Part shown: piece after piece, positions 16,954 through 64,000 of the stretch
How positions within the stretch are numbered: the first letter of the stretch is position 1
Layout: each line of letters begins with the position of its first letter
NCBI GenBank assembly: GCA_030374765.1
Contig: JARGXX010000095.1
Span: 2,542,001-2,606,000 of the forward strand
Direction of reading: 5' to 3'
Source: Agarophyton chilense
Taxonomy: Eukaryota; Rhodophyta; Florideophyceae; Gracilariales; Gracilariaceae
DNA: 64,000 nucleotides
The notes under the pieces: model-generated
Seen by the model: only the letters and a program-made list of their open reading frames with translations
Told to the model about the DNA's origin: nothing
Databases searched by the model: none
Translations under genes and position numbers: made by a program

Positions 16954-19900
16954 CTACTTGGTCGTAGAATTAATTAGTCCAATTATATCAGAAAAAGAAG
17001 GCCGTGTGGACGGCACTGTGCCCCAGCACATTTGAATCAAGTTAATATATGCACGCTGACAATTCATTGGGATCGAAGGCCGAATGTCTTCACCAGCAAC
17101 TCTCTCCGCTACTTGTCTGGGTTCAATACCATGAAATGGAGGTACTCCAGACACCATTTCACATATGATTATTCCATACGAATAGACATCAGACTTCTCC
17201 GAGTGCGGCTCTCCGCGCACCACTTCAGGCGCCATGTATTGATATGTTCCTGACACGCCACTACCAGCATTATCCGTGACGTGACGAGCTAGACCAAAGT
17301 CTCCAATTTTGGCGTTAAAACTGTTGTCCACAAAAACATTGAGAGATTTTAGATCTCTATGAAGAAACCCCGCTTCGTGGACGTAACTCATTCCCTCTGC
17401 CATTTGCAAGCAAATCTTTCGAATGAGGGCCCATGTCAGCTTGATCCTTTGCTTGTGCAAAATGTCGAACAAGGTCCCTCTTTTCATGAACTCTGTCACA
17501 AAGACGAAATTAGGGCTCTTCAAGGAAGCGGCGATACATTTCATAACTCGAGAATGGACCATACTGCACATGATCCTGACTTCATTTGCGAATTCTTCTT
17601 TCGATTGTTGCGATTGAAGTCCGGTTTTAGAAAGCTTTTTGATTGCTACAGGTTCTCTGTTGTATTCACCCTTGTACACGAGAATATTGGTTGCCTCAGA
17701 TATTTTGTCACCGAGCCGAAGTCTCTTCAAGTTCAAAGCCTGTTTCTTATCGATTTCGTAAGAACGTACGAATTTCATCGGTTCAACTCCGCTAGCTCTT
17801 GAAACTTTCAAATCGTGAGGAACAGGATCTGAACGAATTTCTACTCCCTCTGATATCTGATTGTCGTCCACACTATACGTAACACTTTCATACGAATCGT
17901 AGCCGCCTCCATCGTAGTAGTCGTTCTTGGATTTCCCCGTGACCTCAGTTTTGTTAGGCATATCATATTGTACATCACCCCCTTCGTCAAGAGAGTCAGC
18001 ATCTTCGTAGTAGTATGATGTTGACTGCGGTGCGTAGCGCTGAGCGACTGGTTCCGGACCTGCATCTTTGCTCATATCAGAACCACGTGATCTTGGAATT
18101 TGCTCCATTCCAGGCTGAGGGCCGTCAGAAAGTGAGCCTGAACCCATTCGAACGTTAGACATATGGGTTCCACTTTCTGCTTGAAGGGCGGCGGCTTGCT
18201 GTTCTTCCCGCTGACAAATAGCGCATTGACAAAACACTGGGTGGGTCTTGCTGCCGGAGTTGACACGTTCACTGACAACCAATACTTGATTTCCGTATCC
18301 TGAGCGCGCAGCCCATGCTGCAGTCATAGAGCCTTGTCTTGGACCGGGTGCTTGTTTTTGCTTTTGGGTTTGCCGAGCCTGGTAGTCGTTGTAAGCCCCG
18401 TCATCGTCATAGTCGTCCCGAACATCATCGGATTGAGGGCCATCATACTGCGTCGCCACGACCTCTTCGGGAACTCCAAATGCAGACGCGAGTGCTTGAG
18501 CGTTTGAGACACCGGGGGCGGCGTCTTCACCATTTGTGCCGGCAAGTTCGTTTACGGGGTTATCGTTGTCGAGGGCAAGGAGATCTCCAAACAACGTAGT
18601 GACCGCTTTCGAAGCTTCATCCGCACCATGCACGACCAAGGCGCCGTCTTCCGGAGATGGTTCCTTCTCTTCCTTCTCTTCCTTCTCTTTCTCCTTCTGT
18701 GCTTTCCTCTGTTCTCTTTCTTCTCTTCTTTTCTGCCTCAGTTCCTTCCGTTCCATCTTCTCCATCCGTTTTTTATCCACCTCTCTTCTGGCTTCATCAT
18801 GAAGCTCTTGAACTTGGCTTTCCTTCATGGTGGCTTGAGTCAGGACATCTGGAGGTGTTTCTGACGCAAAATGCTGCACCCATTCTTCTCCACCAGCAGA
18901 CGGAACATGTTCTACGGCAAAAACGAGAGCTCTGGAAGCATTGTAGAGGCGGGATATGCCATCCACTAATTTCTGAGCGCCTTGAACTGTTTCGACCTCG
19001 TGCGCCAGTTCTTCTGCGGCTTTAAAGGCCAAGCAGCTGTCACTAACCAGAGCTCCTAGTGCCGTTTGCTTGACTGGAGCCTCACCATCCCTCGCAGAAG
19101 CAAACCGACAGCCGAGCTCGGAAGCCATTTCTATCACATCTGCCATCCCCGAAATAACCCTCCGACGTCTCGTCGTTAGCACATCCCTGCCTTCCGAATT
19201 CAGAGCGCCAGTTCGGTCCCATCGTCCCGTGAACCCTCCAGCAGCCAGCAAGTGAAACTTTGCTTTTCTTCTTAGAAAAGAGGCATAAAACCCCAGCTCG
19301 CCTCCAGCGAAAGAAAAAGTTGCAGAGTGTTTTTCAGAGTTGTTACTTGATTCAATTGCTTCCCTCGTCCATGAGGACTCCACCCAGTCCATGAATTTAT
19401 CATTCTTCCGAACTGCTTCGAGAATACCATCAGGACCGTCTAGAATCAAATTGTGGAGCATTGTCAACACTCGCATTGCACACAACGGATCCGCACTTAC
19501 AGGTTTCCGAAACAAAGTTTTGAAGATGCCTTGTGACATTGCTGCAGGATTGGCGTTAAGGTCTTGAAGAAGTGCAGAGAATGAAGGTGCTATGTCCGTA
19601 CCCTTGATAAGATTATCAACATTTCGCTCAGTGGCTTTTTCAACGAATTCAGGGACTGTCGTTTTTGTCGAGATATCTTTGTTTATATTGATTACAGGAC
19701 TCAATGGTTCTCCTCCAGCAGCTACGGCCCGTTCGAGCAATTCCATGGGATGAGGATGGGAGAACGCAAACGATATTAGTTCGATACATTGAGGTGAATA
19801 TGGAGAAGTTTCTGGGATCTCAAGGCTTTCCGGGGGTTGAACTCCAAAGACCAGCTCATATAGCAACAGGCCGATATCAAACGCATCATCATTGGGCGTG

Positions 19901-20445
19901 AGTCCAGGATTGTCTCGTAAGATGGCCGACCGATGTGCTCCAAATCCTGCAAGGCGAATACGGCCCTCTTGATCCACGAGCAGAGAATCATACGCAATGT
20001 GCGCGTGGGGAGAAGGAATTGTAGCAGCTGCTTTTGCCAGATCGGCTGTAATTGTCAAGAGGACAGCCTCGGAGAAAGATTGGCGCTTCGGCAAAAGACC
20101 ACGTGAACAGAATTCCGCAAGGAAAATGACAGCGAAGGGTGGTTCTCTGAAAACAAACACGTCTTCCAGTTCGATGATATGCTTTTCCGGGTCTGCGAGA
20201 CATGCCCCGCGCCACGCGGCAGCTTCATCGACGAGAGCGTCAACTTCTGTCATAGAGGCAAGATTTTGACGTTTGGCAGCATACAGGCGTGTTGACTTCT
20301 CGTCGCGCACAAGCCATACCGTCGATGCCGGGTTTACAACTTCAGCGGTCTCTCGTGGAGCTAATCGCCTCTCAAATCGCAAGGTCCAAGTGCGACCAGA
20401 CGCCCCTTCCAGAGTTTCCGACCCGCCACGAGTACCCCAAGCCAT
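16954..20445 (-). CDS. pseudokinase-ANTH-like-coiled coil-TKL kinase fusion
   Basis: 1163 residues, one exon. Residues about 25-245 form a kinase-like domain with a Lys (LYAAK, about 57) but HRD replaced by HIAYDS and DFG by AGFG, so probably inactive; it recalls NAK/AAK1-type endocytic kinases. Residues about 262-530 resemble an ANTH (AP180/CALM) clathrin-adaptor domain: VEKATERNVDNL, then VLTMLHNLILDGP, then FYASFLRRKAKFH. Residues about 538-597 are a Lys/Glu coiled coil, followed by a disordered region. Residues about 905-1160 are a complete TKL (Raf/CTR1-like) kinase with VAIKK, HRDLKSLNVF, DFG and APE. The pieces suggest a phosphoinositide- or clathrin-linked signalling kinase on endocytic membranes; that role is inference. 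The ATG at 20445 is the only good start. I know of no described protein with this order. Confidence 0.83.
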   Translation of the reverse strand: MAWGTRGGSETLEGASGRTWTLRFERRLAPRETAEVVNPASTVWLVRDEKSTRLYAAKRQNLASMTEVDALVDEAAAWRGACLADPEKHIIELEDVFVFREPPFAVIFLAEFCSRGLLPKRQSFSEAVLLTITADLAKAAATIPSPHAHIAYDSLLVDQEGRIRLAGFGAHRSAILRDNPGLTPNDDAFDIGLLLYELVFGVQPPESLEIPETSPYSPQCIELISFAFSHPHPMELLERAVAAGGEPLSPVININKDISTKTTVPEFVEKATERNVDNLIKGTDIAPSFSALLQDLNANPAAMSQGIFKTLFRKPVSADPLCAMRVLTMLHNLILDGPDGILEAVRKNDKFMDWVESSWTREAIESSNNSEKHSATFSFAGGELGFYASFLRRKAKFHLLAAGGFTGRWDRTGALNSEGRDVLTTRRRRVISGMADVIEMASELGCRFASARDGEAPVKQTALGALVSDSCLAFKAAEELAHEVETVQGAQKLVDGISRLYNASRALVFAVEHVPSAGGEEWVQHFASETPPDVLTQATMKESQVQELHDEARREVDKKRMEKMERKELRQKRREEREQRKAQKEKEKEEKEEKEPSPEDGALVVHGADEASKAVTTLFGDLLALDNDNPVNELAGTNGEDAAPGVSNAQALASAFGVPEEVVATQYDGPQSDDVRDDYDDDGAYNDYQARQTQKQKQAPGPRQGSMTAAWAARSGYGNQVLVVSERVNSGSKTHPVFCQCAICQREEQQAAALQAESGTHMSNVRMGSGSLSDGPQPGMEQIPRSRGSDMSKDAGPEPVAQRYAPQSTSYYYEDADSLDEGGDVQYDMPNKTEVTGKSKNDYYDGGGYDSYESVTYSVDDNQISEGVEIRSDPVPHDLKVSRASGVEPMKFVRSYEIDKKQALNLKRLRLGDKISEATNILVYKGEYNREPVAIKKLSKTGLQSQQSKEEFANEVRIMCSMVHSRVMKCIAASLKSPNFVFVTEFMKRGTLFDILHKQRIKLTWALIRKICLQMAEGMSYVHEAGFLHRDLKSLNVFVDNSFNAKIGDFGLARHVTDNAGSGVSGTYQYMAPEVVRGEPHSEKSDVYSYGIIICEMVSGVPPFHGIEPRQVAERVAGEDIRPSIPMNCQRAYINLIQMCWGTVPSTRPSFSDIIGLINSTTK

Positions 20446-34539: not shown

Positions 34540-37500
34540 GTGGGCCCTACTTAGGGAGGCGAGATCTGACAGTCCGAGCTCAGAGTAAATGACAACCAAG
34601 GTTGGTCTTCGATACCTTTAGAGGTTCTTCGTCGCCATCGTTTCGGCCTTACAACCCGGAACGGGCTCTGGTTAGCAACGCCTGCGTAGGGACACGACTC
34701 CCCTTGGAGAGTGCCCACGTTTGGGTTCCGTGCAACCACCCCCTTGGGACCGCTCAGACGACCTGCGTGCACGATACCCCGTGGGGGTTCTGCTTACTTG
34801 TTGCGTGCTTTTTGTGTTTCCTTTCGAGGACAGGTTTTCGCCCCTGTATTGGGTTTCTTTTGTTGTTTCGCCCCTTTTCTGGTTCTCGGGTCCGGTGCCT
34901 GTTAGTGCCCGACCCTCGCCCCGTTTTTCCCCTTCGCCGGATTTTCCCCCATTCTTTGGGATACCCATACCCATTCCCGATCCAACGGTTTCTACCCCTC
35001 ACCTCCGTCGGTACTGCCGGAATCCCCCGTGGGAGTTACATCCCACACTACGGGTGGAAGGAGGGCTCTGTCTCTGAGTCTGCCTCCCCCAAGGAGCAAG
35101 GCTTCGAACACCTTGAGAGCACTTCCCGTCGCCGGGTTTTGCTCCACACTACCGCCCGGAAAACCCACTGATGGACGCAAACAATCGCGCGCTGGCGATC
35201 GCGGGACAAATACACCTCATGGTTATCGCGCACGACCTTAAGGTGAGAACGCAGTTCATCGTCGTCAACCGATTGGCCGCAGATTGCATACTGGGGACTA
35301 CCTTTATTGACCAGCACGTCCGGGCAATATTCCCTAGGTCCCAGACGGTTCTGTTCAACAAGGGCCCGCGCGTGGCCATCATCGGAAACCATAAGGTACA
35401 GACGCACCCCAACCCGAATGCGGACGCTCAACCACCATCTGGTACTGTTTCCAACAAGGTTCGGGGTTGGCCTACGCTGTTTCCATTCCGCCCATGCACC
35501 AAAAGGTCGTCAATGTCACGTGCCAGCGACCAGGCTTGGTATGGATACAGAACCACACCAAACTGGTTGACAAACACATGACCTTAATGGCTAATGGCAT
35601 CGTGGAGAATGTACCCACCAAACCATTCAAGGTGTATCTGAGTAACCTTAGTAACCATTTGGTGAAGCTACCGAAGAACACCGTGGTGGGGCTCGCACTA
35701 CCGGCCCCGGGTCACATCTTTATCATCACACCAAATTGGCGGGACGAGGACGTTCCCGCTAAGGAGGGGGGTGGGACTCAGGGTGAGTCGACCGACGAGG
35801 TAGCAGACGCGAACAGTACGACCAACGAGGTCGCGGGAGAGAACAGTACCGATAAGGTGGAAGACTGGAGAAAGGATGTCCAGATTGGCCTTGAAAGTGA
35901 AACGACGAGGGAAAGAGTGCTCACCATGTTGGAGCCTTTTAAAACCATGTAGTCGGGACGCCTTGGGGCCGTCAAGGCAACTCAGCACCGAATAGAGCTG
36001 ACGCCGGGGGCACACCCGATCCACCAACAACCATATAGGGCTGGACCGAAGGCCCGTGAGGTGGAGATGCAGGAGGTGCAACGCATGCTCCGTGAAGGTG
36101 TGATTGAACCCGCGAATGCGGAGTGGGCCAGCCCCGTGGTGGTCGTCCAGAAAAGAGGTGATACCCGTATGCGGTTTTGTGTTGACTACAGAAAGCTAAA
36201 CGCCGTAACGGTGAGGGATTCATACCCGATACCTCGAATGGACGAGTGCATCGACTCGTTAGGCGACGCGCGCATCTTTACCACATTGGAGGCCAATTCT
36301 GGTTATTGGCAGATCAACATCCCGGAGGAAGATCGGGACAAGACTGCCTTTACATGCCACTCTGGTTTATACCGCTTTCGGAGAATGCCTTTTGGTTTGC
36401 GAAACGCGCCGGCCAGGTTCCAGCGGGCCCTGGACATTATTCTGTCCAAGGTGAAGTGGACGACCGCATTGATATATATCGATGACGTGGTCGTCTATTC
36501 CCGCACCTTAGAAGAACATTTTGATCACGAGCAAACCGTACTGGGACTCCTACAAGGTGCAGGTGTCACGCTGAAGCTACCGAAGTGTATCTTCTTTGAC
36601 CAAAAGGTGGAATACCTGGGCCACCTCATAAGCCCTGGTCGACTCGAAGTAGCAGCGCGTAACGTCCGTGCGGTCCAGGAAGCGAGGCTTCCGAAAACCC
36701 AGACGGACGTCCGCTCCTTCATAGGTTTATGCAACGTCTACCGGCGGTTCATCAAGGGTTTTGCCAAATTAGCAGCCCCGCTGAACCGCCGCCTTCAGAA
36801 GGGACAACCATCTAGGTTTGAGTGCTTGGAGGACGATGAGGTAGCGGCTTTTCAGCATTTGAAATCCGCCCTCCTCTCGCCACCAATTCTGGCACTACCG
36901 AAAGCGGGGAAGCCGTACACGTTAGATACGGATGCCTCGGAGGGTCAGATAGGTTGCTGTCTAATGCAGGAGCAAGACGATGGCAGTAAAGCACCAATTG
37001 GTTACTGGAGTCGCGCACTATCGCCAGCCGAGAAAAACTATTCGGTGACCGAGAACGAATGCCTAGCGGTGGTGTGGAGCATATTGATGCTACGGCCGTA
37101 CCTATATGGTGAGCGGTTCACGCTGCGCACGGATCACGATTCTCTAAGGTGGATATCGGGGCTCGCAGACGCTTCGGGGCGGCTGGCCCGGTGGCGGTTA
37201 CGCCTGTCCGAGTTCGACTTTGAGGTGCAATACCGCCCTGGTATAAAGCACAAAGTCGCAGATGCGCTGTCGCGCCTAAACACCGAAGGGTTAGACATCG
37301 GAACGGTGGATGACGACATCCCCTGTTTTATGCTCCAACCAGCGAGGCCCGACGAAGACGCTCCGTTGGAGGGGACTTGGGACGACCACGGAGGTATAGG
37401 ACTGAAGGACCGTTCGGGTGACCAGACCAAAGCACCGATGATGGTAGCCGACGTGGAAGAAGAAGATGATGCCCCTATAACCCGTGAGGAGATGCTCGCT

Positions 37501-39215
37501 GCGCAGGCAGCGGATGCCTACTGCCGAACGCTAAGTGACCAGATTGGTTTAAAGGAATCTCAGTTCGACGTTGACCACGAAGGGTATATCGTGCGGCGTT
37601 CATCGTTAGACGGTTCCCTCCAAAAGGTGGTCCCCGAGGCTCTAAAAGCCCGGGTTTTTTACCTCGCCCATTACCCACGGTTGGCTGGACATCCAGGAGC
37701 TACGCGGATGTACTACACCTTGCGGTCGTCGTTTTACTGGCCCCACATGGCCAACGATATATATACTTACGTTGGTCAATGCGCCTCTTGCGTTAAAACC
37801 CGTGGTGGTGTAAGGAAGCACCGGAAGTATCTCAAGCTATTTCCGGCGGCCGGGCCCCTGGAGTTCGTCGCAATTGACGTCCTGGGGCCTCTACCGAAAA
37901 CAGCCGAAGGATAACGCTTTGTGGTTGTCATTACCGACAGGTTCTCGAAGCTAACTAGGGCTATCCCCTTGAAGAGTACTACCTCAACGGTCTTGGCTGA
38001 GGCCTTCCTTAACAATTGGGTGTACCCGTACGGGGCTCCGATGTACCTCCTCACCGATAATGGTTCCAACCTAGCCTCGAAATTCTTCGAAGCAGTCTGC
38101 GCCATGCTTGGTACTCACCACTACTTCACTACCGCGTACCACCCCCAGACCAATGGGCAGGTGGAACGTTTTAATAAGAACCTAGTGGCCAGGCTCCGCC
38201 ATTATGTGGAGGAGCACCAAACGAGGTGGGCGTAGTACGTGCAACCGCTGACGTGCGCCTACAACCTTCAGGTGCATCGGACTACACAGACTACACCGTT
38301 CGACTTGGTGCTGTCTCGGGCCCCTCCTAACATTGTTCTTCAATCGGGGCCCTAGAACTACAGCTCCGCAGGGACTCTGACACCGGCAGCGGTAAAACGG
38401 AACATCATTAAGACGGTTCGAACTACCCTACGGGTCGCCAACGTCAAGCTTACCGCAGCGCAACAGCGGTACAAAGCGTACTACGACCAAAAGGTTTCAA
38501 GAGTCACCACAGTCAAGAAGGATGGCTTTGTTTTTATCGATGCACCACCTTCGGGTTCAAGGCCTACGCCGGCCGAGCAGAAGTACGATATTACCGTGGA
38601 CGGTGACATCCGGTCTAAGCTCCTCCCTAAATCTATTGGACCTTATGAAATTTTGGAAGCGAACGACCACACGGTAACCGTCCTAATGGATGGCCTCGAG
38701 AACACCATATCGGTCGACCGCATCTCGATAGACCCGACGCCACGCACGCCCGACTCACCCGAGGGTAACATTGAAGAGACCACACCGACGGGTCCCTCCA
38801 CTACGTCGAACCAAACCCCGGCGTCTCCGTCGGGACCCCAACCCGAACTGCGCCCTGCACCCGAGTCCTTAACCAGAGTGGTATCTGCTGACCCTACCGG
38901 TCCCGACCAGTCAGATGCATCCGCAGGCAATACCTACGAGGTCACCCCAGCCCTTGCACATCGCTCCGTTTCGGATGAACCACCGCAAGGTCTACACCAG
39001 GAGGTAGTTCCTACCGAAATCTGCGTGATCGACACCATCCTTGGTCACGAGCACACCATCAGAGGTGTACGGTACCGCGTTGGGTGGTACGCCTGGGCGG
39101 CGTACAAGGACACGATGGAACCACCGGGTCACATTCCGCGCAACTTCCACCTGCGCTATTGGCGGACGCGCAACGAACCTATGCCACCCGATGGGTAAAC
39201 CCGTGGGGTCCACAG
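34540..39215 (+). mobile_element. dead Ty3/Gypsy retrotransposon with gag deleted
   Basis: A chromodomain-type Ty3/Gypsy element. Its leader (34.5-35.0 kb) is related to that of the fragment at 1-1340 but is followed almost directly by the second half of a protease, so gag and the protease N-terminus are missing. Pol then runs through reverse transcriptase, RNase H, integrase and chromodomain to 39198. A purine run (GGTTAGGAGGAGGGA) at 39215-39229 could be the polypurine tract. The outer ends are approximate, as no matching LTR pair was found. Confidence 0.75.
35117..39198 (+). pseudogene. broken Ty3/Gypsy pol polyprotein
   Basis: The retropepsin second half (ADCILGTTFIDQHV) lies in one frame; the catalytic Asp region is absent. 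Near 35,400-35,470 the reading shifts by one base into the frame that carries the rest. That frame then continues to 39198 with only four stops: TAG 35950, TAA 37912, TAG 38233 and TAG 38353. Domains: reverse transcriptase with YIDD (about 36,475), RNase H (DTDASEGQ), integrase zinc region HHCC, DDE core (TDNGSNLAS), and a C-terminal chromodomain (YRVGWYAWAAYKDTMEPPGH). Each stop sits where a related protein would have Gln or Trp, so single transitions explain them. The copy cannot make its own polyprotein. Confidence 0.88.
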
Positions 39216-61129: not shown

Positions 61130-64000
61130 TCAAATAGCAAGGAGAGCGTTGGCCTTCTGGGCCAGATGGGCTGGGGTGGCCTTGCGCTTAAGTAGGCGCT
61201 CGACCATCATCGGGACGTCTTCGAACACACGTTCAAGCGGCTCGACAGTGTCCTCGGAGTTATCCAGTCCCTTCCAGCGGACGTGGACCTTGAGACCATC
61301 GGGACTGTCCTCGAGCCCCATTAGGCAGGCGACAGGCATGCCCGACTCGGACTGTAGGACATGAGACAGAATGGCTGCCTCGTCAATCGCGTCGTCGCGG
61401 TAGAACTTCAGACGCGTCGAGTGTACGTCATCCATTTGGCCATTCCGGAGGTCTTCAACTTGATAAACGTAGTCGCTCAGCGCCTTGATGACCCTGCGAA
61501 GACCGCGCCAGCGAAGGACGAGCTTGTCTCCAGCACCATATTCGGTGCGGGCCACGAGGACATAGTCACCCTCAGTGAAGTGAGGGTGCTTTCCACGCGA
61601 CGCCGCGGCTCTTGCTTGCTTGCGATGTTTGACCAAATTGGACTGTACGAGTGGATGAAGCTCGTCTCGGAACTCGATGAGCTTCTGTACGTTGAGGGTG
61701 CGTTCTGCTTGCGCCTCTGTCAACGTGACCGGTGTGGACAGTGATGTTCGCATGAAGGTCTGAACCGGTGGCGTCGGTTCTTTGCCCATGAAGGCCGTGA
61801 TTGGACACACATTCCCACGCTGCGGAGAGGGGGAATTGTTGAGGACCGATTGGACGATGGGGATGAGGTCAGGCCATTCGGTCGTGCGCATCTGAAGCTC
61901 TGAAAGGACCGACCTTAGGACGCGAAGCAACTCACGACCCAGACGCTCTACTGCCCCGTTGCTCCACGGACAGTAGGGAAGGGTGAAGTGGTGCGGCACC
62001 TTGAGACCCTTTGAGACCAAACGGACAGTCTCATTCTTGAAATGAGTGGGGCCATCGGACATGAGACCATTAGGGACGCCGAAGGCTGCACACCACTCGA
62101 TGATGGCAGTGGCGGCGTTATCGGCGGAGGTGTCAGGGAACGGGAAGAACCACTTGTAGTCCGAATGGTCGTCTCGCAACATGAGTGCGTACTTGTCGCC
62201 GTGCGCTGTGGCTCCGAGCTCGATGGAGTCGAACTGGAGCAGGTCGTTCGCTTTCGTGCCGTGGACGGCCGGGCCGAAAGGACGTGGGATTTTCTCCCCT
62301 CCGACTGTCGATAGACAGTGGATACAAGCACGGACGAAGGCGCGGACGTCCGCCTTGAGCGTAGACCAATGAAAGGACTTGAGGAGCGCCTGCTCCGTGG
62401 CGCTAACGCCGCGATGACCCGAAGGACCAGTATGGGCGATGATGCACAACCGGAGCTGGATGTCAGCGGCGTCATCCGGGACCCAGATGGAACCAGAAGG
62501 AAGAGTCCAAAGTTGGTCATTGAGGACGAGGTCCGCAGGGCGTGATGCATCGTGCGCCTGCTGAACCGCGGCGAGTGTAGTCCGTGTAGGCCAGTCGAAG
62601 TCCGTGCTGGACGACGAGGGAAGCTCCAGGATGCGCACGAGGCGGCGCACAGTGGCCGGAACCGTAGACCATCGGGTCAGAAGATCGGCCCAGACGTTGT
62701 CGTCGCCCTTGATGTGGTAGCATGTGTAGCGGTACATGCTCAGCCGCACGGCCCAACGTAGGACTTTGCGCATCGACGTCTGCGACATGTCGGGGACCAC
62801 CGACAGCGGGTCGAATAGGAAGATGAGGTTGTTATTGTCCGTGTAGAGGTCGAATCCTTCAGGCGTCGCGACGATCCAGTGCATACGGTCCAAAGAGGTC
62901 AGGACGGCGTACGCTTCCTTCTCGAGGACGGACCAACCCATCTGGGTTTTGTTGAAGCGTCCCGAGAGGAACGCCAACGGCGAATGCCGTTGGTACTTGT
63001 GGGGCTTGACGATGTCCGGGAAGGGGACTTGGGTCACAATCCCGGACCAGGCCGTATCGGACGCATCGGTGTAGACGCACAAGCGTTGGCCGACGTCGCG
63101 GTGCTCGAGCGTGACCTGACGCGCGAGAGCGTTCTTGCATGCCTCGAAGGCGTCCAATTCGGTCTTGTCCCATCCGAGGTTCACGAGTAGGACACGAGCA
63201 ACTGCGCTCTTCGTGCGCTTGGCCACATGGTCATACACGCGTTCCATGAAGTCGTGCAGCGGTGCCACGAGTTCGGAGAAGCTGGGGATGCCCTGCTTGA
63301 CCCACTGTAGGGCGCAGACGAACTGCTGCAGGTTGGTCCCGGTGGTCGGCGGCTGCATGGACAGCAGGCCGTCGAGGCGGTGCGGATCGTAGCGAAGACC
63401 AGAACTGGACACGAGACGGCCACACCAGCGTATCTTCTTGGCGAATAGGATGCATTTCGCCAGGTGGAGCTTGATATTGTGGTCCGCACAGACCACAAAG
63501 AATGACCGAATGAACTTCAGCAGGCCGGAAACGGTCGGTGCATGAATGAGGATATCGTCCAACCAGGACAACATGATGGCCTTGAGGTCAGCGGGTATGA
63601 TACCCGCGAAGGCGGATTGCAGATGAGTCACTGCATTGGTCGTCCCGTGGAGGACACGCGTCGGGGAGAAAATGCCGTCTGGTGTGATGAATGACTGGCA
63701 CTCCTGTGACTCTTCGGATAATGGCAGCTGCCAATAGCCGTGCGAGAGGTCGAAGGTCGCGAAATATCTCGACGTGACCAGTTTGGTCAGATCGTGCTCC
63801 AGATTCGGCATCGGGTACTGATGCCGGACGGTGAACTTGTTGACCGGACGCAGGTCCACTGTAAAGCGGAAGCGGGTGCCTGGCTTCGGCACAAGGAGCG
63901 GCGCGCAGGCCCATTTGGACGTCGGGTTCGCGTACGCGAGACCATGGTGGACGAGGTCCTTGACGAACTTGTCCATGAAGTCCCTTTGGTCTTGCGAATA
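61130..64000 (-). CDS. Ty3/Gypsy pol polyprotein, 5' partial
   Basis: The frame is open to the right edge and ends at 61130, giving 956 residues. Reverse transcriptase with SWLDDILIH in place of the usual YxDD; RNase H (CVYTDASDTAWSG); integrase zinc region (AHTGPSGHRG, then CIHCL); a DDE core visible as LLQFDSIEL, LMSDGPTHFKNE and NGAVERLGREL; and a C-terminal chromodomain (VHVRWKGLDNSEDTVEPLER). Similar proteins are well known from oomycetes and algae. Being intact, the element may be recent or active. The polymerase variant Trp-Leu-Asp-Asp is worth noting, but both catalytic Asp are kept. Confidence 0.9.
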   Translation of the reverse strand, partial: YSQDQRDFMDKFVKDLVHHGLAYANPTSKWACAPLLVPKPGTRFRFTVDLRPVNKFTVRHQYPMPNLEHDLTKLVTSRYFATFDLSHGYWQLPLSEESQECQSFITPDGIFSPTRVLHGTTNAVTHLQSAFAGIIPADLKAIMLSWLDDILIHAPTVSGLLKFIRSFFVVCADHNIKLHLAKCILFAKKIRWCGRLVSSSGLRYDPHRLDGLLSMQPPTTGTNLQQFVCALQWVKQGIPSFSELVAPLHDFMERVYDHVAKRTKSAVARVLLVNLGWDKTELDAFEACKNALARQVTLEHRDVGQRLCVYTDASDTAWSGIVTQVPFPDIVKPHKYQRHSPLAFLSGRFNKTQMGWSVLEKEAYAVLTSLDRMHWIVATPEGFDLYTDNNNLIFLFDPLSVVPDMSQTSMRKVLRWAVRLSMYRYTCYHIKGDDNVWADLLTRWSTVPATVRRLVRILELPSSSSTDFDWPTRTTLAAVQQAHDASRPADLVLNDQLWTLPSGSIWVPDDAADIQLRLCIIAHTGPSGHRGVSATEQALLKSFHWSTLKADVRAFVRACIHCLSTVGGEKIPRPFGPAVHGTKANDLLQFDSIELGATAHGDKYALMLRDDHSDYKWFFPFPDTSADNAATAIIEWCAAFGVPNGLMSDGPTHFKNETVRLVSKGLKVPHHFTLPYCPWSNGAVERLGRELLRVLRSVLSELQMRTTEWPDLIPIVQSVLNNSPSPQRGNVCPITAFMGKEPTPPVQTFMRTSLSTPVTLTEAQAERTLNVQKLIEFRDELHPLVQSNLVKHRKQARAAASRGKHPHFTEGDYVLVARTEYGAGDKLVLRWRGLRRVIKALSDYVYQVEDLRNGQMDDVHSTRLKFYRDDAIDEAAILSHVLQSESGMPVACLMGLEDSPDGLKVHVRWKGLDNSEDTVEPLERVFEDVPMMVERLLKRKATPAHLAQKANALLAI

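Follow-up and report, generated by a model that had tools for sequence, protein, structure and literature searches.

The NAK family of protein kinases, which includes AAK1 and BMP2K and also GAK and yeast Ark1/Prk1, has AP-2 as its classical substrate and a helical insert that follows the activation segment, and we know of no NAK protein with an ANTH-like or TKL domain fused to it. Two accounts describe a role of the family in clathrin endocytosis (PMC10952953, PMC10653628). Trypanosoma brucei lacks AP-2 but has the NAK-related pseudokinase NRP1/AAK1L1, with HRN for HRD and an altered DFG (DFN); this protein affects endocytosis and was reportedly found together with clathrin, both by localisation and as an interaction partner (PMC9633767, PMC10952953). 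Here we describe a gene of the red alga Agarophyton chilense, located in a window of 64,000 nucleotides (assembly GCA_030374765.1, contig JARGXX010000095.1, positions 2,542,001 to 2,606,000 of the forward strand), which encodes a NAK-like pseudokinase, a divergent ANTH-like region, a linker and a TKL-group protein kinase in one protein. A preliminary description of this DNA had proposed a pseudokinase, an ANTH-like adaptor, a coiled coil and an active TKL kinase in that order. The order was recovered here and is shared by a paralog, whereas the coiled coil, the intact state of the TKL kinase and a direct ANTH match were not confirmed. Coordinates are window positions, and labels beginning with C, L and G000 denote contigs and loci of the same genome.

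The N-terminal kinase fold of the fusion protein is most similar to BMP2K and AAK1, but it has lost both catalytic aspartates and is joined to ANTH-like and TKL domains. Like NRP1/AAK1L1 it resembles the NAK kinases but has changed HRD and DFG positions, and the trypanosome lacks AP-2 while AP-2 was undetected here, its absence being unproven. The substitutions differ (HRN/DFN in the trypanosome, HAH/HAN and GFG here), and ANTH-like or TKL domains go unmentioned in the available excerpts of the trypanosome accounts. No protein with the order pseudokinase, ANTH-like, TKL was found among the listed titles and abstract openings of the literature searched. The component domains themselves are already known.

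The 1163 codons contain no internal stop, and the single uninterrupted frame of the preliminary description, ATG to stop on the minus strand, was borne out. When the frame is cut into 12 blocks of about 97 codons, linker included, the first codon position has the highest G+C in 11, and plus-strand frames overlapping 16954-20445 reach at most 147 aa. When the whole protein was searched against the genome (79.8 Mb, 135 contigs), 42 matches were listed, 40 of 215 candidates being scored, and most of those listed fall on the C-terminal kinase of the query. Residues 12-215, 317-608 and 921-1159 match, in order, one frame of 1200 codons on contig C88. Its product aligns end to end with the window protein at 29% identity, with 31% in the pseudokinase, 27% in the middle region, 21% in the linker and 39% in the TKL kinase (aligned positions). 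BLASTP between corresponding pieces gave 61 bits for the pseudokinases, 86 bits for the middle regions and 214 bits for the TKL kinases, and no significant match between the linkers. Apart from the query itself, no listed match of the TKL domain scores higher than the paralog (206.6 bits, with 130 at the locus that follows); the paralog alone matches the middle region among the 42 listed, and each pseudokinase is the best match of the other. Because of these three relationships, the fusion is probably older than the duplication. A second gene with the same order, alignable throughout, makes a chance join unlikely, and a chimera is disfavoured by the position of this paralog on another contig. 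The fusion is most likely a real gene that belongs, with its paralog, to an old pair.

The Pkinase profile search proposed in the preliminary description found the N-terminal part (residues 1-260 alone) with E=0.0027 (PF00069), yet under the curated cut-off. A profile built from both pseudokinase copies (pair profile A2) and run on PDB sequences gave 894 matches at E<=10. Its top nine rows were BMP2K (3) and AAK1 (6), with E from 2.7e-12 to 9.2e-11 (best BMP2K 2.7e-12, best AAK1 3.2e-11), followed by CBK1 (1.6e-10) and PAK kinases. NAK is the best, but not a decisive, family assignment. No TKL kinase was present among the best 60 of the 894 matches, and a tandem duplication of the TKL domain is therefore unlikely. 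The Asp positions of HRD and DFG are occupied by H149 and G167 in the window protein and by N137 and G155 in the paralog, as expected from the degenerate NAK-like kinase claimed earlier. The beta3 Lys (K58) and the alphaC Glu (E74) are retained. Judging from these residues, both copies should be catalytically dead. An active NAK kinase was sought in the genome through one DNA pattern, H-[RS]-D-x-K-[VIM]-E-N, which gave 0 matches, although the pattern had no positive control and is weak.

The Pfam ANTH profile (PF07651) matches two places in the genome. One is L010 (119.1 bits), the ordinary AP180/CALM-like ANTH protein of this alga, and the other is the paralog, in which residues 373-530 score 28.3 bits on the protein (31.2 in the genome scan) against a cut-off of 21.5. 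The match covers profile positions 50-205 of 276, leaving 1-49 and 206-276 unmatched. We call the middle region of the window protein ANTH-like because it is homologous to this paralog region that passes the cut-off, and it may be regarded as a divergent ANTH relative by transitive homology. A pair profile of the middle region gave three PDB matches at E<=10, namely the Sla2 ANTH domain (0.22 and 0.26) and an enoyl-CoA hydratase (1). The ANTH-type motifs noted earlier were thus retained as a relationship through the paralog with weak Sla2 matches; the Pfam search did not return residues 260-530 as something other than ANTH, nor did it support them directly.

A putative ANTH core, by homology through the paralog, is shared with the ANTH adaptors CALM, AP180, HIP1R, Sla2 and L010, whose ANTH fold is a helical solenoid and from which the fusion protein differs in that the region is internal and not near the N-terminus. 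The phosphoinositide motif of CALM, K-x9-K-x-K-H, was seen by eye in L010 as KATNRENAAPKGKH, but a motif test found it in neither fusion protein. Phosphoinositide binding through the canonical ANTH site is not supported, and the phosphoinositide membranes that the preliminary description had suggested from the kinase-like and ANTH-like parts should be dropped. The ubiquitin site of ANTH domains is placed in their C-terminal three helices, in the excerpt consulted (PMC8648300), and the PF07651 match may fall short of these helices. Relatives of the middle region were also sought in viral contigs, where 49 stretches matched a search pattern and none was confirmed.

The C-terminal kinase matches PF07714 with E=3e-58 over residues 911-1155. 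The catalytic residues are present: K936, E955, HRD (1029-1031), K1033, N1036, DFG (1049-1051) and APE (1072-1074). Among PDB sequences CTR1 ranks second and third for this domain, after one EGFR construct, and first and second for the domain of the paralog. The nearest kinases include CTR1 and those of the MLK/MLT type, and the domain is the best-conserved part between the paralogs. The paralog keeps its P-loop glycines and has AVE instead of APE. The Raf/CTR1-like kinase of the preliminary description therefore stands in its TKL type, catalytic residues and CTR1 matches, but not as intact, since the P-loop glycines are gone. Unlike CTR1, Raf and MLK-type kinases, which it resembles in this domain, the fusion protein has clathrin-coat-type domains attached.

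In the linker, residues 551-600 contain 76% K/R/D/E and 8% hydrophobic residues. In 28-residue windows starting at 541-586, every 5 residues, the hydrophobic a/d fraction in the best register is 0.12-0.38, and the 47 i/i+4 pairs of the charged stretch include 15 of opposite and 13 of the same charge. The coiled coil proposed at about 545-595 was rejected for lack of heptads, and these charge pairs do not clearly speak for a salt-bridged single helix either; because neither pattern is clear, we name it a charged stretch. Clathrin-binding endocytic adaptors carry a clathrin box in a disordered region. A motif like this box occurs once in each fusion protein, on the C-terminal side of the ANTH-like region, and the chance of at least one such box in the shuffled linker is 0.07 for the window protein and 0.06 for the paralog. 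A CxCxxC motif (CQCAIC, residues 739-744, 18214-18231, minus strand) in the linker faces a gap in the paralog and is a possible small metal site.

Adaptor proteins were searched with profiles disregarding introns. PF00637 matched seven times in each of two clathrin-heavy-chain-like frames, 1762 and 1834 codons long; three further matches at C98:1340753-1342063 are interrupted by stops and are fragments. The pair of heavy chains and the pair of fusion proteins are possibly, but not necessarily, connected. PF00928 found three medium chains, AP-1 mu, AP-3 mu and L030, which we infer to be delta-COP. PF01602 found six large chains above the cut-off, among them gamma-COP, beta-COP, AP-3 delta and one beta chain, which scores 660.8 bits to AP-1 beta against 653.4 to AP-2 beta and may be AP-1 beta, AP-2 beta or shared. 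The two further large chains (L035/L041 and L038/L042) would be accounted for by AP-1 gamma and AP-3 beta, although L041 could be the alpha chain of AP-2. A seventh, weaker PF01602 place (L040/L043) is condensin-like. The alpha appendage profile PF02296 had no genome match, but it matched in no control either, and PF02883 gave none above the cut-off, though an AP-1 gamma ear might be expected. No AP-2-specific subunit was detected, in contrast to AP-1 mu, AP-3 mu, AP-3 delta and COPI chains, in searches that ignored introns and leave absence unproven. AP-2 is very well retained generally, with African trypanosomes as a striking exception, as stated in the excerpt consulted (PMC10952624), and its loss in this alga, if true, would be unusual. 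The genes of L010 and gamma-COP (L034) lie close together on opposite strands (G000:C2:1144312-1147833).

The whole is best explained if the N-terminal half of the fusion protein is a non-catalytic dock that puts the TKL kinase on clathrin coats, a reading to which we give a probability of about 0.5. It is favoured because of the domain order of the paralog, the NAK-topped PDB search, the ANTH match of the paralog, the clathrin-box-like motifs, the clathrin-heavy-chain-like frames and the trypanosome precedent. The pseudokinase and the ANTH-like domain would be docking surfaces inherited from clathrin-coat regulators, and not enzymes. Together with the clathrin-box-like motif of the linker, they would place the C-terminal kinase at clathrin-coated membranes, where it may phosphorylate coat or cargo proteins or start a kinase cascade. 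The combination of domains may connect membrane trafficking with signalling, as the preliminary description had suggested for endocytosis and phosphorylation. By analogy with the trypanosome, the N-terminal half would be the coat-binding module and the TKL kinase the effector, and membrane contact, if any, would not be made through the known ANTH phosphoinositide site. If this is true, a single polypeptide, probably in red algae, physically connects clathrin coats with a Raf/CTR1-type kinase, and two components of the coat machinery lost their canonical activities but were retained for the surfaces they offer; it would also become testable whether NAK kinases become scaffolds once AP-2 is lost. 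A more specific history is rather unlikely in our estimate: after loss of AP-2, a decayed NAK kinase and an ANTH domain without its phosphoinositide site would have joined a TKL kinase, giving an AP-2-independent link from the coat to a MAP3K-like kinase that was later duplicated. If true, a NAK pseudokinase would have outlived AP-2 in a second lineage, independently of African trypanosomes.

Several observations weigh against a dock on clathrin coats. The NAK lead of the pair profile is modest (BMP2K 49.8 bits against 44.0 for CBK1), and the BMP2K score sums two stretches (35.8 and 12.2 bits) where CBK1 reaches 44.0 in one; the N-terminal part of the paralog also draws a Pfam APH match (22.4 bits, cut-off 23.2). 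Pfam ANTH gives no match in the window protein itself, and hhalign of the middle pair against L010 aligned only 21 columns, with a probability of 1%. The clathrin-box-like motif is suggestive only as a clathrin contact, because shuffles of the whole protein yield one at 0.55 (0.59 for the paralog), which is not significant. The motif scan found DPF, DPW, NPF, FxDxF and WxxF in neither fusion protein, and AP-2 appendage binding through DPF, DPW, FxDxF or WxxF was rejected. Three P-loop glycines are replaced in the degenerate glycine loop of the window copy. As to the trypanosome precedent, one RNA interference study is cited as having found cargo uptake unaffected, in the excerpt consulted (PMC10952953).

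The pseudokinase could instead regulate the TKL kinase allosterically, as JH2 does JH1 in JAKs, with the ANTH-like region as a spacer or dimeriser in a cytosolic MAP3K-like kinase that has no endocytic link. Such regulation would fit the joint retention of pseudokinase and kinase in both paralogs, the missing phosphoinositide motif, the weak ANTH signal of the window protein and the nearness of the TKL domain to CTR1, MLK/MLT-type and other kinases. However, NAK kinases head the matches of the pseudokinase profile, with TKL kinases missing from its best 60 of 894 rows, ANTH is above the cut-off in the paralog and the two kinase domains lie some 660 residues apart, which leaves allosteric regulation doubtful. 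The replacement of glycines kept in the paralog by S916, A918 and I921 raises the question of whether both kinase domains of the window protein are dead or nearly so, making it a pure scaffold while the paralog stays active. This is improbable, given that K936, E955, D1031, K1033, N1036, D1049 and APE are retained, that the TKL domain is better conserved (39%) than the other parts (31%, 27% and 21%) and that the paralog itself deviates at APE. A frame artefact, in which adjoining genes are read as one or the assembly is chimeric, would agree with the unconserved linker and with the fact that these domains sit in separate proteins in well-known organisms, but the same order in one frame at a second locus on another contig and 1163 codons without a stop make it highly improbable. 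The dock on clathrin coats is preferred over these three.

Table 1. Coordinates of the fusion gene, its parts and related loci of the genome
Feature	Residues	Position	Strand	Basis or remark
Whole coding frame	1163 aa	16954..20445	minus	single exon as read, ATG to stop
Probable NAK-type pseudokinase	12-245 (approximate)	19711..20412	minus	PF00069 and pair profile A2
HAH at HRD position (HAN in paralog)	147-149	19999..20007	minus	catalytic Asp lost
GFG at DFG position (GFG in paralog)	167-169	19939..19947	minus	Mg-binding Asp lost
Divergent ANTH-like core	307-476	19018..19527	minus	BLASTP to paralog middle region, 87 bits
Linker, no significant similarity to paralog linker	521-900	17746..18885	minus	BLASTP
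K/E/R-rich charged stretch	545-595	18661..18813	minus	composition, heptad analysis
Clathrin-box-like motif LLALD	622-626	18568..18582	minus	paralog LLTLD at 575
TKL-group protein kinase	908-1159	16969..17724	minus	PF07714, catalytic residues kept
Degenerate glycine loop	914-926	17668..17706	minus	S916, A918, I921 vs G in paralog
Paralog	1188 aa	L009:1701-5267, contig C88		same three domains in same order
Clathrin-heavy-chain-like frames		G000:C105:1161354-1164458 and G000:C131:415469-418606		PF00637
Adaptor-chain loci		L028, L029, L033, L035/L041, L037, L038/L042

Searches with NCBIfam gave 12 families each for the window protein and the paralog, all of them kinase or kinase-bearing and all under the cut-off. 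Rfam at gathering thresholds had 0 matches in the window, and nothing in plasmid records, searched in near mode, matched the window protein. Elsewhere in the genome, kinase matches of equal or near-equal score occur in frames of 532-1161 codons (G000:C77, C78, C79 and also C5) and recur at a spacing of about 7.16 kb (about 7,158 bases); these scores and this spacing suggest a tandem array or a mobile family with a kinase domain. The phycobilisome linker profile PF00427 has 13 genome matches, all above the cut-off, on C88, C68 and C1 (each longer than 2 Mb), C10, C16, C80 and C39, which looks plastid. From these domains a red alga would be the likeliest host and a glaucophyte a less likely one. 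In the window itself, positions 36061-37911 (plus strand) and 61133-63976 (minus strand) hold reverse transcriptase/RNase H frames with an integrase zinc-binding domain, of the long terminal repeat retroelement type.

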